Shown here: piece after piece, positions 19,634-24,534 of the stretch
Layout of the letters: each line of letters starts with the position of its first letter
Position numbering within the stretch: the first letter of the stretch is position 1
NCBI RefSeq assembly: GCF_014699055.1
Contig: NZ_JACXAC010000004.1
Span: 124,001 to 188,000, forward strand
Reading direction: 5' to 3'
From: Hymenobacter armeniacus
Lineage (GTDB): Bacteria; Bacteroidota; Bacteroidia; Cytophagales; Hymenobacteraceae
Length of the DNA: 64,000 nucleotides
Position numbers and translations under genes: made by a program
The notes under the pieces: model-generated
The model's database searches: none
Told to the model about the DNA's origin: nothing
What the model saw: the letters and a program-made list of their open reading frames with translations, nothing else

Positions 19634-20683
19634 CTACAACGCCTCAAACTGCCGCAGGAAGCGCATGTCATTCTCCGTAAACAGGCGCAGGTCCTTTATC
19701 TGGTACTTGAGCATGGCAATGCGCTCGATGCCCATGCCCCAAGCGTAGCCGGAGTATTTCTCAGAATCAATCTTGGCGTTTTCGAGCACGGCGGGGTCCA
19801 CCATGCCGCAGCCACCAATCTCGACCCAGCCCGAGTACTTGCAGATGTTGCAGCCCGCCCCTTTGCAAATCAGGCAGGTGATGTCAATTTCGGCGCTGGG
19901 CTCGGTGAAGGGGAAGAAGCTGGGCCGGAAGCGGATGTTGATGTCTTGCCCAAACAGCTCCTGCACGAAGTAGTACACCGTCTGCTTGAGGTCGGCGAAG
20001 CTCACGCCTTCGTCAATGAAAATGCCTTCCACCTGGTGGAACATCATGTGCGCCCGGGCCGAAATGGCCTCGTTGCGGAACACGCGGCCCGGCATCACCC
20101 GCCGAATGGGCAGGGGCTCGGTTTCCATCACGCGCACCTGCACGGTGCTGGTGTGGGTGCGCAGCAGGTAGGGCTGGGTGCCGGGCTCGCTGCCCACGGG
20201 CGGGGCCACGAAAAACGTGTCCTGCATGTCGCGCGCCGGGTGGTTCTCGGGGAAGTTGAGGGCGGTGAAGTTGTGCCAGTCGTCTTCAATTTCGGGCCCC
20301 TCGGCCACGGCGAAGCCGATGCGGGCAAACACGCGCAGCATTTCTTCGCGCACCAGGCTCAGCGGATGGCGGGTGCCCAGGGCGTTGGGCACCACGGGCA
20401 GGGTATAGTCGAAATCGGGGTTGGCAGGAGCATTGTCGGCGGCGGCTTCGGCGGCTTGCTGGGCCTCGTCGAAGCGGGCCTGGGCCTGCTGCTTGAGGGC
20501 GTTGAGCTGCTGGCCCACGGCGCGCTTCTCCTCGTTGGGCACGGTCTTGAGCTGGTCGAACAAGTCGGCCAGCCGGCCCTTGCGGCCGAGGTAGCTGATG
20601 CGAAATGCATCGAGTTCGGCGGGATTATTCAGTTCGGCCTTCGTAATTTCGGCCGTAAGAGCGGCAATGGATTCCTGCATCAT
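19634..20683 (-). CDS. pheS: Phenylalanine--tRNA ligase alpha subunit
   Basis: A 349-residue class II aminoacyl-tRNA synthetase subunit. An N-terminal coiled coil covers residues about 1-85 and the catalytic core follows: motif 1 region HPLSLVREEMLRVF, motif 2 with GRVFRNEAISARAHMMFHQVEG, and motif 3 with GYAWGMGIERIAMLKY. FRPSFFPFTEPSAEI lies between. A Cys cluster CLICKGAGCNICKYSGW (about residues 279-295) replaces the usual E.C..C..C.W-like loop of the family. Two adjacent ATGs (20683, 20680) are possible; a promoter box ends 6 bp upstream. Confidence 0.97.
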   Translation of the reverse strand: MMQESIAALTAEITKAELNNPAELDAFRISYLGRKGRLADLFDQLKTVPNEEKRAVGQQLNALKQQAQARFDEAQQAAEAAADNAPANPDFDYTLPVVPNALGTRHPLSLVREEMLRVFARIGFAVAEGPEIEDDWHNFTALNFPENHPARDMQDTFFVAPPVGSEPGTQPYLLRTHTSTVQVRVMETEPLPIRRVMPGRVFRNEAISARAHMMFHQVEGIFIDEGVSFADLKQTVYYFVQELFGQDINIRFRPSFFPFTEPSAEIDITCLICKGAGCNICKYSGWVEIGGCGMVDPAVLENAKIDSEKYSGYAWGMGIERIAMLKYQIKDLRLFTENDMRFLRQFEAL

Positions 20684-20689
20684 AGGCCG

Positions 20690-20722
20690 CAAAGTTACGG
20701 CAAGGGCCCGGCCCTCGCCGAA
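20690..20722 (-). promoter_or_regulatory. Candidate pheS promoter, near-leaderless
   Basis: The minus strand reads TAACTTTG at 20697-20690, a perfect -7 box, with TTCG 21 bp upstream as a weak -33. The -7 box ends 6 bases from the ATG, so the transcript would carry almost no leader. Confidence 0.5.
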
Positions 20723-20782: not shown

Positions 20783-21442
20783 ATGAAACGTGCGCTATTT
20801 TTTCTGTTCGTATTCGGCGGATTAGCTTCCACCGCCTCGGCCCAGAGCGGCTGGGATACCCCCGCCGCCGGCTGGGACACGCCCAAGAAGGCCCCCGCCA
20901 AGAAATCCACCAAAGCGCCGGCTGCCGCCGCTGCTGGCCAGAAAGCCACGCAAAACGGCGGCGCAGCCGCAGCCCCCGCCACCGAAGCAGCGCCCGCGCC
21001 TGAGGCCGCCGCTGCTGCCCCCGCGGCCGCCGACGACAAAGGCTTTGGCGCTGCCGCCGGGGGCTCGTCTTCCAGCAGCGCCAACATTGGCCAAGGCATT
21101 TCGGTGGCGCCCGGCGCTCCGGTGATGATGCGCGGCGGCCGGCACGTGATGCAGGACGACGCCATTGCCGCCCGCGAGCGTCGCCTCAACCGCAAGCCGC
21201 GCCGCGAGAAGCCCTGGCCGCCGCGCCCCGTCGACGCTGCCCCGGCTCCGGTAGCCACCCCCGCAGCCGCTGCCGCCCCTGCTCCCGAGCCGGCTGCTCC
21301 GGCCGCTGATGCCATGGCTGGCACGGGCGCCACGGCCGCCAAAGGTGGCAGCGCCGCGGCCGAAAAGCCCAAAACGGCCACTAAGGCGCCTGCCAAGGCC
21401 CTTGTACCCAAGAAAAAAGCGCCCGAGCCCCTTGGCTGGTAG
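20783..21442 (+). CDS. Small secreted Ala/Pro/Lys-rich protein, APGMPV family member 1
   Basis: A 219-residue protein with a signal peptide (ALFFLFVFGGLASTASAQ). Two short WDTP repeats follow (SGWDTPAAGWDTPKK), then long Ala/Pro/Lys low-complexity stretches. The ordered-looking centre reads IGQGISVAPGAPVMMRGGRHV at about residues 107-127, which is this gene's form of the APGMPV motif shared with the next three genes. A basic segment RERRLNRKPRREK follows. No known domain is recognised. It is divergent from pheS and ends before its own terminator. Confidence 0.6.
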   Translation: MKRALFFLFVFGGLASTASAQSGWDTPAAGWDTPKKAPAKKSTKAPAAAAAGQKATQNGGAAAAPATEAAPAPEAAAAAPAAADDKGFGAAAGGSSSSSANIGQGISVAPGAPVMMRGGRHVMQDDAIAARERRLNRKPRREKPWPPRPVDAAPAPVATPAAAAAPAPEPAAPAADAMAGTGATAAKGGSAAAEKPKTATKAPAKALVPKKKAPEPLGW

Positions 21443-21475
21443 GCGAGCATAATTCCTTCGCATAAAGCAAGCCCG

Positions 21476-21520
21476 CGGCCCGGTTGCTCTTCTCAGGTGA
21501 GGGGAGCAGCCGGGCCGTTT
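21476..21520 (+). terminator. Terminator of secreted-family gene 1
   Basis: CGGCCCGGTTGCTC (21476-21489) pairs with GAGCAGCCGGGCCG (21504-21517), then TTT. Confidence 0.7.
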
Positions 21521-21590
21521 GCCGTGAATGCGGGCATAAGTTTTGGGCCCGGCCGACCGGGGCAGCGGCTTACGCGTATGCCACAGGCAC

Positions 21591-21630
21591 CCCAACGAGC
21601 CCGCCTCTTGCTGAGCGCGGGCTCGTTGGG
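21591..21630 (+). other. Perfect 14-bp stem upstream of secreted-family gene 2
   Basis: CCCAACGAGCCCGC (21591-21604) pairs perfectly with 21617-21630, loop 12, ending 35 bp before the ATG at 21665. It may be a second terminator or a 5'-leader hairpin. Confidence 0.6.
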
Positions 21631-21664
21631 TGGTTCTTTCTTTTCACCCGTTCACCACCCGCTT

Positions 21665-22054
21665 ATGTACCGCATTCTAATTTCTGGCCTGCTGGCGCTG
21701 GCTGCCATCTCCGAAGCCGCTGCCCAAGCCGCCCCGGCCGCCAAAACCACCACTGCCACCCGCCAATCGGCCGCTCGGCCGGCTCCCAGAGCCGCCTCGG
21801 CCGCGCGCACCGCCACCACCAAGCGCGCGGGCACCGCCAACACCACGGCTGCCCCCGCTGCGGGCGGCCGCAACGACATCGGGCCCGGCGGCAATGGCGC
21901 GGTGGGCTCCACTGAGAGCGCCGACGGCAAGGGCCAGAGCGTGTACGCGGCCCCGGGCATGCCCGTGAACGTGGACAACCCCAAAAAAGTGGGCAGCTAC
22001 AACGGCCCCGCGCCGGCCCGCACCAAAAGCCGCACCACGCTCACCCCGCGATAA
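21665..22054 (+). CDS. Small secreted basic protein, APGMPV family member 2
   Basis: A 129-residue protein with a signal peptide (ILISGLLALAAISEAAAQ) and a strongly basic Ala/Thr/Arg-rich mature part. The motif region reads GQSVYAAPGMPVNVDNPKKV (about residues 93-112), followed by a short tail with PAPARTKSRTTLTPR. It resembles gene 3 in length, motif and tail (TTLTPR versus TTLGN). No known domain is seen. It has its own strong terminator. Confidence 0.6.
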   Translation: MYRILISGLLALAAISEAAAQAAPAAKTTTATRQSAARPAPRAASAARTATTKRAGTANTTAAPAAGGRNDIGPGGNGAVGSTESADGKGQSVYAAPGMPVNVDNPKKVGSYNGPAPARTKSRTTLTPR

Positions 22055-22078
22055 AAGGCGGGAGTTGGTCGGGACAAT

Positions 22079-22121
22079 GGCCCGGATGGTAGGCGTTTGC
22101 GCACCATCCGGGCCTTTTTTT
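22079..22121 (+). terminator. Terminator of secreted-family gene 2
   Basis: GGCCCGGATGGT (22079-22090) pairs with ACCATCCGGGCC (22103-22114), followed by seven T. Confidence 0.85.
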
Positions 22122-22222
22122 GCGCGCTGCCGAGCGAGCAGAGAAAGTTGGCACGCCTTTGGAATATGTCCATTCAACAACGGTAACCAACTTTTCCTCT
22201 TCACATTCTTAGCCCTTCAGCC

Positions 22223-22633
22223 ATGCTTCGTTCGTTCCTCACCCTTGCCCTGTCGATGTTCCTGCTGGCTGAAGCCAGTGCCCAAACCGCTCCGGTGGCC
22301 TCGACCAAAAAGACGGCCCGCGCCACCAAGGTAGCCGCCCGCAAAGCCGCCAAAGCCCGCCGCGTCGCCGTGAAGTCGGCCCCCGCCGCTCCCCTTAACG
22401 ACGGCTGGCCCCCCATCGAAAACAACACCCAAACCGCCGTGGCCTCGAACGACGGCTGGGGCTCGCCCGAATCGGTGATGGCCAGCAGCCCTTCGCGCGG
22501 CGAAATCGATAACCAGAACATTTCGGCCGCGCCCGGCATGCCCGTGCACGTGCGCACCAGCAACGGCCTGACGCCCTACAGCGTGCGCCCGCCCCGCAAG
22601 CCCGCCGCCACCCAAACCACGCTCGGCAACTAA
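22223..22633 (+). CDS. Small secreted basic protein, APGMPV family member 3
   Basis: A 136-residue protein with a signal peptide (LTLALSMFLLAEASAQ). A Lys/Arg/Ala-rich stretch (STKKTARATKVAARKAAKAR) follows, then two NDGW segments (LNDGWPP and SNDGWGSPES) that recall the WDTP repeats of gene 1. The motif reads NQNISAAPGMPVHVRTSNGL (about residues 98-117). The tail has RPPRKPAATQTTLGN. Calculated charge would be clearly positive by eye. Function unknown. Confidence 0.6.
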   Translation: MLRSFLTLALSMFLLAEASAQTAPVASTKKTARATKVAARKAAKARRVAVKSAPAAPLNDGWPPIENNTQTAVASNDGWGSPESVMASSPSRGEIDNQNISAAPGMPVHVRTSNGLTPYSVRPPRKPAATQTTLGN

Positions 22634-22644
22634 TACTGCCCGCT

Positions 22645-22679
22645 CAGCCGGCCCGGATTATTCCCCGGGCCGGCTGTTT
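22645..22679 (+). terminator. Terminator of secreted-family gene 3
   Basis: CAGCCGGCCCGG (22645-22656) pairs with CCGGGCCGGCTG (22665-22676), then TTT. Confidence 0.8.
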
Positions 22680-22821
22680 GGCTTCGCTGGAACCGGCTTC
22701 CGCTCAGCGCCACCATCCACTTCGGTCGGTTGTGCGTATGAACGGGAGCCGGTTGGCTTTCGGCCCGATTTCGGCAGGGCCGCTCCACTGGTTTTTCTTT
22801 GTCCCCCTAACTTCTATTTCC

Positions 22822-23202
22822 ATGTTTCGCTACTTTTTCGCTTCGCTGGTGCTGCTGGCCATTGCCGCCACCGATGCCTCGGCCCAAACGGGCAACCGCG
22901 GCAAAAAAATCGCCCCGTACTCCTCGCGCGGTCCGCGCAAGGTGAAGACGGCCGTCAAAATCAACCCCCACACCGGCAAGCCCTACGGCGCCGGCGTGCC
23001 CGAAGACATTCGCAACGGCTCGATGTACCTGGCCCCGGCCACGCCCATGCGCCGGCAGGTGGGCTACACCGCCAACGGCGGCTACAACGACAACCGCACG
23101 CCCCGCCCGCGCTACGCCAAGCCCTCCAACAGCTCCTTGAGCCGCGACAGCAACCTGCCCGTCGCACCGGCCAAAACCAAGGTGAAGGCCAAGCGCAAAT
23201 AA
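22822..23202 (+). CDS. Small secreted basic protein, APGMPV family member 4
   Basis: A 126-residue protein with a signal peptide (FFASLVLLAIAATDASAQ). The mature part is rich in Arg, Lys, Pro, Tyr and Asn. The family motif is degenerate here (RNGSMYLAPATPMRRQVGY, about residues 66-84) but sits in the same relative place. It also has PYSSRGPRKVKTAVK, recalling PYSVRPPRKPAAT of gene 3. It ends KVKAKRK. The function is unknown. Confidence 0.6.
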   Translation: MFRYFFASLVLLAIAATDASAQTGNRGKKIAPYSSRGPRKVKTAVKINPHTGKPYGAGVPEDIRNGSMYLAPATPMRRQVGYTANGGYNDNRTPRPRYAKPSNSSLSRDSNLPVAPAKTKVKAKRK

Positions 23203-23232: not shown

Positions 23233-23275
23233 AAAAAAGAACGGTCCGGCTGAACACAGCCGGACCGTTCTTTTT
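23233..23275. terminator. Bidirectional terminator between convergent genes
   Basis: GAACGGTCCGGCTG (23239-23252) pairs with CAGCCGGACCGTTC (23257-23270), with A-run and T-run on the two sides. Stops are at 23202 and 23290. Confidence 0.88.
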
Positions 23276-23289
23276 GGTGAAGGAGGTGA

Positions 23290-24534
23290 CTAATCCTGCC
23301 CGACGGCTTCGTAGTAGAGCGTGCTGCAGTTTTCGGGGCGCAGCACTTCCTGCGCGGCGGTGCGCACGCTGGCCACCGTCACGGCCTGAATGCGGCCGCT
23401 TTCTTCGTTCACCAAGTTGGCATCGCCCTGCAGCTTGCTGTAGGCCAGGTTGAGGGCGCGGTTCAGCAGGTCAATTTCGCCGAAAACCAAGCTACTTTCG
23501 GCCTGGTTTTTCACTTTTTCCAGTTCCTGGGCGTTCACGTCTTCGGCCAGGAATTCGGCCACTACTTCTTCCACGGCCGCGTCGGCGGTTTTGAGGTCCA
23601 CGCCCGCGTTTAGCTTGCCGCTGATGACGAGCAGGCCGGGGTCGAGGGAGCCGGTGAGGGAGGCCGAAATGTTATTGAACAGGGCCTTTTCTTTCACCAG
23701 GCGCTGGTGCAGGCGGGCCGATTTGCCGTGGCCGAGCATGTCGCTCAGCAGGTCGACGGAATTGTAGCGGGCGTCGCTGCGGGCCGGCATGTGGTAGGCT
23801 TTGTAGAGCGCCGAGAGCGGCACGGGGGCCTGGGCCGTGAGGTGGCGGGCTTCCTGCTGCGGGGGCTCCTGCGGCAGCTGGCGCTGGTAGGCCGGCCCGC
23901 CCGGGATGGGCCCAAACCACTTTTCGGCCAGGCGGCGCACCTCGGCGGCGCTGGCCGCGCCGGCCACCACCAGCACGGCGTTTTGGGGCGCGTAGTGCTT
24001 TTGGAAAAAGCCGCGCACGTCGTCCATTACGGCGTTTTCGATGTGCGAAATCTCCTTGCCGATGGTGTTCCACTGGTAGGGGTGGGTATGGTAGGCCAGG
24101 GGCTTAAGCTTGAGCCACACGTCGCCGTAGGGCTGGTTGAGGTAGCTCTGCTTGAATTCTTCCACCACCACTTTGCGCTGCACCTCCAGGCCGTTTTCGG
24201 AAAAAGCCAGGTTCAGCATCCGGTCGCTTTCCAGCCAAAAGCCGGTTTCGAGGTTGGCCGCCGGCAGCGAGAGGTAGTAGTTGGTGACGTCGCTGGAAGT
24301 GAAGGCGTTGTTTTCGCCGCCCACGCGCTGCAGCGGCTCGTCGTAGCTCGGAATGTTCACCGAGCCGGAAAACATGAGGTGTTCAAACAAGTGCGCAAAG
24401 CCCGTATGGCCGGGGTCTTCGTCGCGCGAGCCCACGTCGTACATCACGTTGAGCACGGCCATGGGGGTAGAAAAATCTTCGTGCACGATGCAGCGAAGGC
24501 CGTTATCGAGGGTGAATTCCTGGAAATGAATCAT
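23290..24534 (-). CDS. M16 family zinc peptidase
   Basis: A 414-residue protein with the inverted zinc motif HxxEH at H48-L-F-E51-H52 and the third ligand probably Glu125 or Glu126 (VVVEEF), the expected spacing. The N-terminal FTLDNGLRCIVHEDFSTP and ENNAFTSSDVTNYYLSLP are family signatures, and a second M16 domain fills the C-terminal half. It has no signal peptide. Many Bacteroidota carry a second, inactive partner gene next to it; none is present here. Confidence 0.93.
   Translation of the reverse strand: MIHFQEFTLDNGLRCIVHEDFSTPMAVLNVMYDVGSRDEDPGHTGFAHLFEHLMFSGSVNIPSYDEPLQRVGGENNAFTSSDVTNYYLSLPAANLETGFWLESDRMLNLAFSENGLEVQRKVVVEEFKQSYLNQPYGDVWLKLKPLAYHTHPYQWNTIGKEISHIENAVMDDVRGFFQKHYAPQNAVLVVAGAASAAEVRRLAEKWFGPIPGGPAYQRQLPQEPPQQEARHLTAQAPVPLSALYKAYHMPARSDARYNSVDLLSDMLGHGKSARLHQRLVKEKALFNNISASLTGSLDPGLLVISGKLNAGVDLKTADAAVEEVVAEFLAEDVNAQELEKVKNQAESSLVFGEIDLLNRALNLAYSKLQGDANLVNEESGRIQAVTVASVRTAAQEVLRPENCSTLYYEAVGQD

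Follow-up and report, generated by a model that had tools for sequence, protein, structure and literature searches.

The window analysed here, 64,000 nucleotides (nt) of the Hymenobacter armeniacus genome (assembly GCF_014699055.1, contig NZ_JACXAC010000004.1, positions 124,001 to 188,000), was found to carry four tandem genes for small, exported-looking proteins, which lie between pheS and an M16 family peptidase gene (Table 1). An earlier note, made from the sequence of the window, had described four consecutive genes for small proteins here, and the four tandem open reading frames (ORFs) on the forward strand at 20783-23202 were confirmed. Judged by sequence comparison, the four genes appear to represent one lineage-restricted family of paralogues fixed between these two neighbours, and the existence of this family is far better supported than the mechanism proposed below for its products.

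Four small basic proteins and their shared motif

All four N termini have a hydrophobic stretch ending in AQ, as assessed by eye and by a simple rule, and the mature chains have isoelectric points (pI) of 10.1-11.5, net charges of +9 to +19 and no Cys. The signal-peptide-like N termini and basic, low-complexity mature parts that the note had reported were seen in all four genes. The ratio of non-synonymous to synonymous substitution rates (dN/dS) was 0.075-0.32 in 16 of 16 comparisons of the four genes with four relatives, and by this measure the ORFs are real genes under purifying selection. The codon adaptation index (CAI) was 0.789 for gene 4 and 0.783 for gene 3, compared with a leave-one-out median of 0.716 (range 0.612-0.869) for ribosomal proteins and a median of 0.653 for 25 window ORFs chosen by length, their status as genes being unchecked; null draws were as high in 1 of 1000 cases for gene 4 and 0 of 1000 for gene 3. 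The codon usage of genes 3 and 4 thus resembles that of ribosomal proteins, as would be expected of abundant proteins.

One motif had been proposed to be common to the four proteins, and its forms in genes 1 to 4 (APGAPV, APGMPV, APGMPV and APATPM) are as claimed. The pattern AP[GA].P[VM] arose in shuffled mature chains at frequencies of 0.0228, 0.0042, 0.0056 and 0.0018, jointly about 1e-9, though this test overstates the significance because the pattern was picked after the sequences had been seen. The conservation of the motif core in relatives is stronger evidence than the shuffle statistic: in the alignments of gene 1 (n=25), gene 2 (n=20), gene 3 (n=28) and gene 4 (n=25) the core is invariant or nearly so and the linkers are variable, with a few other short blocks also kept. 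WDTP occurs twice in gene 1 and NDGW twice in gene 3, while PYSVRPPRK of gene 3 corresponds to PYSSRGPRK of gene 4, so that the W-containing repeats ascribed to genes 1 and 3, and the PYS.R.PRK block ascribed to genes 3 and 4, hold good as sequences.

Table 1 Features of the array and its neighbours, in window coordinates (strand given as + or -, and as a dot where a feature acts in both directions).
Feature	Position	Strand	Remarks
pheS, phenylalanine--tRNA ligase alpha chain	19634..20692	-	Divergent neighbour, syntenic anchor; PF01409 (E 1.7e-95), PF02912
Gene 1	20783..21442	+	219 aa; GWDTP repeats near N end, EPLGW at C end; resembles type C of relatives
APGAPV of gene 1	21107..21124	+	A109, P110, G111 and P113 invariant in 25 aligned sequences
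Terminator-like hairpin after gene 1	21476..21517	+	Weak T-run; z -4.56
Second stable hairpin	21588..21633	+	Ends 31 nt before gene 2 start; z -7.76
Gene 2	21665..22054	+	129 aa
Gene 2 module, APGMPV...SYNG	21950..22006	+	Y94-G98 invariant and Y112 nearly so in 20 sequences
Terminator hairpin and T-run after gene 2	22079..22121	+	z -5.16
Sigma-54-like element before gene 3	22148..22164	+	-24 box TTGGCACG intact, 75 nt before gene 3; -12 box TGGAA altered
Gene 3	22223..22633	+	136 aa; NDGW repeats, PYSVRPPRK
Gene 3 module, APGMPV...PYSVRP	22529..22591	+	P104, G105, M106, Y119 and P123 invariant in 28 sequences
Terminator-like hairpin after gene 3	22645..22676	+	z -4.12
Gene 4	22822..23202	+	126 aa; most basic of the four
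Gene 4 motif region, APATPM...YNDNR	23032..23097	+	Y69-P72 and M76 invariant, Y88, N89, N91 and R92 nearly so, in 25 sequences
Bidirectional terminator of gene 4 and the convergent peptidase gene	23240..23275	.	z -7.94
M16 family peptidase	23290..24534	-	Convergent neighbour, second anchor; PF00675, PF05193

The two-part module and its distribution

The proteins of relatives carry a longer unit, in which APG is followed by 8-14 residues and then usually by [ST]TDY.GRP, in one or two copies per protein. The motif APGMPV, as named in the note, is present but is not a complete unit, being the first half of a two-part module that is clearer in relatives. Three types of protein were distinguished: type A (about 150-190 aa, mostly with two modules), type B (about 100-140 aa, LAPGLRLNMPSPPTTDYMGRPLKKK) and type C (about 155-230 aa, DGWG repeats and a terminal GSGW being usual). 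Similarity between types A and B is confined to the module (46% identity, 35 columns, E 8.9e-13), types A and C match at E 7.4e-17, and a third group of genomes has intermediate forms, such as SVAPGMPINQVTHGVSTDYDGHP and YAAPGEPVNVTDNGKKTPGYDGPAP, that bridge the full module and YAAPGMPVNVDNPKKVGSYNGPAP of gene 2. Module number and position vary among members.

Gene 1 matches the type C profile at E 6.5e-18 over columns 1-109 only, that is mainly over the N-terminal half with signal and low-complexity sequence included, and gene 2 matches the gene 3 profile at E 1e-19, the signal peptide included. The match of gene 3 to type A is weak (E 3.7e-5, APGMPV...PYSVRP being aligned to APG...TDYWGRP), and neither this nor that of gene 4 to type B (E 8e-7) is better than matches between pairs with only the signal peptide or the module in common. 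When APG-x(8-14)-[DS]Y.G was sought in the window, the first half was found in all four proteins, and the second half could be recognised in gene 2, had changed in genes 3 and 4 and was not seen in gene 1. As the sister genus (g6) carries the full module, the versions of the window clade (SYNG, PYSVRP and YNDNR) look like a decayed second half, the direction of change being read from that distribution.

Searches with single proteins at E <= 0.01 detected gene 3 relatives in 52 of 120 genomes of the genus, some of them through gene 2 paralogues or weak matches, and gene 4 relatives in 27 of 120, the own genome being included in both counts. The DNA upstream of pheS was read in 20 genomes of the genus lacking a strong match, five of which had weak ones (G050, G063, G068, G074 and G084), and 20 of 20 encode small signal-bearing proteins with the module. 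pheS itself was found in 119 of the 120 genomes, and the census covered 119 pheS loci, 117 from Hymenobacter and two from g6, leaving out G087 (pheS not found) and G093 and G094 (pheS at a contig end). At least one member with the xAPGx pattern was present at 118 of these loci, 116 of 117 in Hymenobacter, and the lone miss (G055) is a 241-base contig end. The 118 genomes have one member in 7 cases, two in 48, three in 58 and four in 5, numbers that are approximate as members were gathered by regular expressions (a signal rule plus an AP[GAN] pattern). By a further regular expression, 105 of the 118 have at least one copy of the module APG...[DSNPG][YW].[GN]. The xAPGx filter reduced 318 candidates to 297 members, dropping window gene 4 and similar proteins; the 297 are all Cys-free, 278 are net positive and 261 have a pI above 8.5. 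The note had taken a lack of motif-bearing homologues outside this strain as grounds for rejection; such homologues are common in the genus, and the motif is kept. On the far side of the array, an M16 motif (HLFEH or HIFEH) was seen 3' of it in 79 of 118 loci and was not seen in 12, the stretch having ended within 1.3 kb in the other 27.

In the sister genus, members lie beside pheS in 5 of 5 genomes read, among them G196, G199 and G203, and none does so in the 14 genomes read from g2 (3), g4 (6) and g5 (5), three further genera of the family. A search of the order with the module profile A5 at E <= 0.01, scoring at most 19 candidates per genome so that misses are possible, gave matches in 51 of 390 genomes, 44 of the own genus, four of g6 and three others. 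These last three are partial matches, at E 0.004-0.008, and were taken as chance. The gene 2 profile, for which at most 21 candidates per genome were scored, with misses again possible, gave matches in genus g4 (G138 and G142) that cover only the first 49 and 69 positions, and the G142 protein, when read, was a different one. On the strength of the pheS-locus census and the order-wide module search, and within their reach, the family appears confined to Hymenobacter and g6. Outside the pheS locus there are a few single copies. Related single modules (YVAPGMTGAPKQQVTTDY.N.PLKK and similar) were observed in four genomes, at L189:4713-5045 (-), L190:5005-5313 (+), L191:4735-5061 (+) and L192:4775-5161 (+); the same stretches also encode further small proteins that look exported (RRTPRKGRPNY..., ISPVPGVVLPTG...), and these recur from one genome to another.

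Scans of Pfam and NCBIfam with the four window proteins and nine relatives gave matches below cut-off only, the best being NF045524 (E 0.00059, 19.6 bits against a cut-off of 140). This agrees with the earlier statement that no known family has this motif, and a match to a known family, there held to be fatal to the proposal, did not occur. No RNA family was found in the window, the module profile gave a single match among solved structures (an antibody chain, E 0.11), and the literature titles and abstract openings contained no description of the family. Secreted disordered proteins confined to one lineage are known as a general class; the present family, its module and its fixed locus are undescribed as far as these searches show.

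Predicted transcription signals at the array

Five hairpins of the window, folded as DNA, have z values from -4.12 to -7.94, and 0 of 200 shuffles were equally stable. Since a stable hairpin follows each gene, the four genes are likely to be separate transcripts. The earlier claim that each gene has its own terminator is upheld as regards a stable hairpin after every gene, while the separate transcripts deduced from it are only probable: the T-runs 3' of genes 1 and 3 are weak, and a stock terminator scan of the region was at chance level, with 6 found and 5.6 expected. In six relatives a strong hairpin occupies every gap, a comparison made without a shuffle control, and the hairpin between genes 3 and 4 of L005 and L006 is not terminator-like. 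The hairpin preceding gene 2 may be a structured leader or an extra terminator.

The sigma-54 consensus used for scoring requires GG at -24 and GC at -12. A score of at least 11 out of 13 was reached by 53 of 305 upstream stretches of 150 nt. Over 20 mononucleotide shuffles the mean was 1.0 and the maximum 4, intragenic stretches gave 2 of 318 and the reverse strand gave none; at a score of at least 10 the count was 70 of 305, with 4.6 in shuffles and 1 on the reverse strand. All but two of the 53 sites (51) precede the first counted gene of an array, and the genes behind them have two modules in 30 cases and one in 23. Among the forms of the site, TTGGTACGGTTGCTGCA, which lies about 130 nt upstream of the start, and CTGGCACCGCCTTTGCA, about 65 nt upstream, are the most frequent. 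Sites with the required GG and GC occur in 53 of 118 genomes, and 33 more have only a -24-like box, as found by a loose pattern without a control. TTGGCACG is kept at a level of at least 85% in the consensus of 31 gene-3-type upstream regions. The H. armeniacus genome contains a sigma-54 gene, and its sole exact YTGGCACN5TTGCW lies at G000:C6:405893-405909 (-), about 3 kb from that gene. Taken together, the upstream sequences suggest a sigma-54-like promoter footprint in many relatives, of which gene 3 in H. armeniacus keeps the -24 half alone. A comparative study ties sigma-54 to the bacterial exterior (PMC3162934).

Other upstream elements were also seen. Many aligned type A genes (e.g. L138, L146, L203 and L209) share a conserved block, GGGGCGCCACCCG, situated 3' of the sigma-54-like site and 5' of the start codon, which might be a leader RNA element. 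Type C genes (e.g. L139, L152, L208, L219, L224 and L236) are preceded by GGAACTTC with CGTT at some distance after it, an arrangement reminiscent of a promoter for extracytoplasmic function (ECF) sigma factors. A CGTATG element precedes genes 2 and 4, both in the window (about 21573-21583 and 22733-22744) and in several relatives, and it also precedes several type B genes.

Possible role of the family

AlphaFold2 models built with orthologue alignments have a mean predicted local distance difference test score (pLDDT) of 57.9 for gene 3 and 58.3 for gene 4, with predicted template modelling scores (pTM) of 0.22 and 0.20, respectively. They contain no fold, the helices being the signal helix, one at 29-52 in gene 3 and two of 4-5 residues in gene 4. 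The models fit disorder, and the window proteins are probably unfolded.

The conservation of the locus suggests that the family contributes a genus-specific component to the cell envelope or to its surroundings. The proteins would be exported by Sec to the periplasm or beyond, where the module may dock them, as a short linear motif, to a single shared partner; this would be either an envelope protein or, in self-association, the module. The Lys/Arg-rich linkers would serve as spacers that stick to anionic surface polymers, such as lipopolysaccharide (LPS), exopolysaccharide or extracellular DNA, and the members would play a structural or adhesive, non-enzymatic part in the envelope or extracellular matrix; from separate transcripts the cell could dose each member individually. 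An enzyme is argued against because the short kept motif sits in freely varying linkers, once or twice and at varying places. A docking motif is preferred to a C-terminal sorting signal because the module varies in number and place and types A and B are alike over the module alone. This account as a whole, in which the members are non-enzymatic constituents of envelope or matrix and dock through their module to a shared partner, is a serious candidate whose chances we put somewhat below even. Its boldest form, in which APG-x(8-14)-DY.GRP would be a new extracytoplasmic short linear motif that assembles or cross-links separately transcribed disordered proteins into a genus-specific envelope or matrix layer, is offered tentatively, as an idea that is on balance doubtful.

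Several observations weigh against these readings. The low AlphaFold2 confidence may stem from shallow alignments (25 and 28 rows, one genus), genes 1 and 2 have ordinary CAI values of 0.642 and 0.671 without codon bias, and related genomes are not independent trials. In the window, module profile A5 is significant for gene 2 alone (E 6e-9), a match that is not independent as A5 includes a near-copy of this stretch of gene 2 as a row; it scores gene 3 at E 0.97, does not find genes 1 and 4, and misses G008, G032 and G064, genomes of the own genus that hold gene 3. The descent of the four window genes from module-bearing ancestors would consequently rest on place, signal, motif core and profile matches, the last being partly driven by signal or low-complexity stretches. 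As to the promoter, intragenic stretches also reached a score of at least 10 (22 of 318), and in 32 of 118 genomes neither a site nor a -24-like box was seen, some of them having scores of 10. The gene 3 site of the window keeps GG but has GA in place of the GC required at -12, the window has fewer two-mismatch matches than chance would give (6 against 10.8), and the one exact YTGGCACN5TTGCW of the genome equals the count of the backward control.

Other explanations were weighed. The members are hydrophilic, Cys-free, disorder-like and genus-wide, and Hymenobacter is known for dry and cold habitats, all of which would suit exported protectants of the hydrophilin kind, whose disordered chains would guard membranes or envelope proteins in drying or freezing through their composition, with the module secondary. 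However, only 48 of the 297 members combine a grand average of hydropathy (GRAVY) below -1 with Gly above 6%, our reading of the hydrophilin criterion, none of the three window members counted does so (gene 4 being outside that count), and a role by composition alone needs no strictly kept module; such protectants appear unlikely. Hydrophilins and late embryogenesis abundant (LEA)-like protectants share hydrophilicity, low complexity and disorder-like character with the window family, which differs in its signal-like N terminus, mostly basic charge and short conserved motif region, most members missing the hydrophilin cut. Basic chains that bind LPS, exopolysaccharide or nucleic acid, with the module as the binding unit and no docking partner, would agree with the net positive charge of 278 of 297 members, with the +9 to +19 of the window chains and with the Lys or Arg that follows the module in many members. 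Yet invariance falls on A, P, G, Y/D and R, while the Lys/Arg-rich linkers vary, and 19 of 297 members are not net positive, which leaves simple polyanion binding an improbable account of the family.

The small size, basic charge, exported look and repeated module are also those of precursors from which the module would be processed out as an antimicrobial, signalling or modified peptide, and the N-terminal part of one relative has a sub-cut-off match (E 0.032) to a precursor model for cyclophane ribosomally synthesised and post-translationally modified peptides (RiPPs). Between pheS and the peptidase gene, the stretch examined for such genes, there is no maturase, transporter or immunity gene, and the convergent M16 neighbour shows no sign of belonging to the unit, so that peptide precursors seem very unlikely. 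Long spurious frames are common in the window owing to its high GC and its Ala/Pro richness, which would allow low-complexity coding drift or misread ORFs; against this stand the purifying selection in 16 of 16 comparisons and the conservation of motif and place across the genus, by which the misread-ORF reading is refuted for practical purposes and its probability is negligible. Cargo of the type IX secretion system (T9SS) of Bacteroidota likewise has a signal-like N terminus and belongs to the same phylum, but the module has no fixed C-terminal place, and no T9SS sorting-domain model reached cut-off in the general Pfam and NCBIfam scans of the four window proteins and nine relatives, which included no dedicated search. 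An analogy is offered by disordered adhesive or matrix proteins with short repeats, such as mussel foot and elastin-like proteins, which likewise set a short Pro-Gly and Tyr/Arg motif in basic low-complexity linkers; the window family differs in being bacterial, in having only one or two module copies and in being spread over several separately terminated small genes.

The array is a clear case of a lineage-restricted gene array, found beside pheS in two genera and not in the 14 genomes of three genera of the same family. In the boldest of the above readings, the envelope or matrix of Hymenobacter would contain a modular scaffold of disordered chains. A family that occupies one locus in nearly all Hymenobacter genomes examined, has a conserved module and, in two of its window members, shows codon usage close to that of ribosomal proteins likely matters to what sets these bacteria apart.

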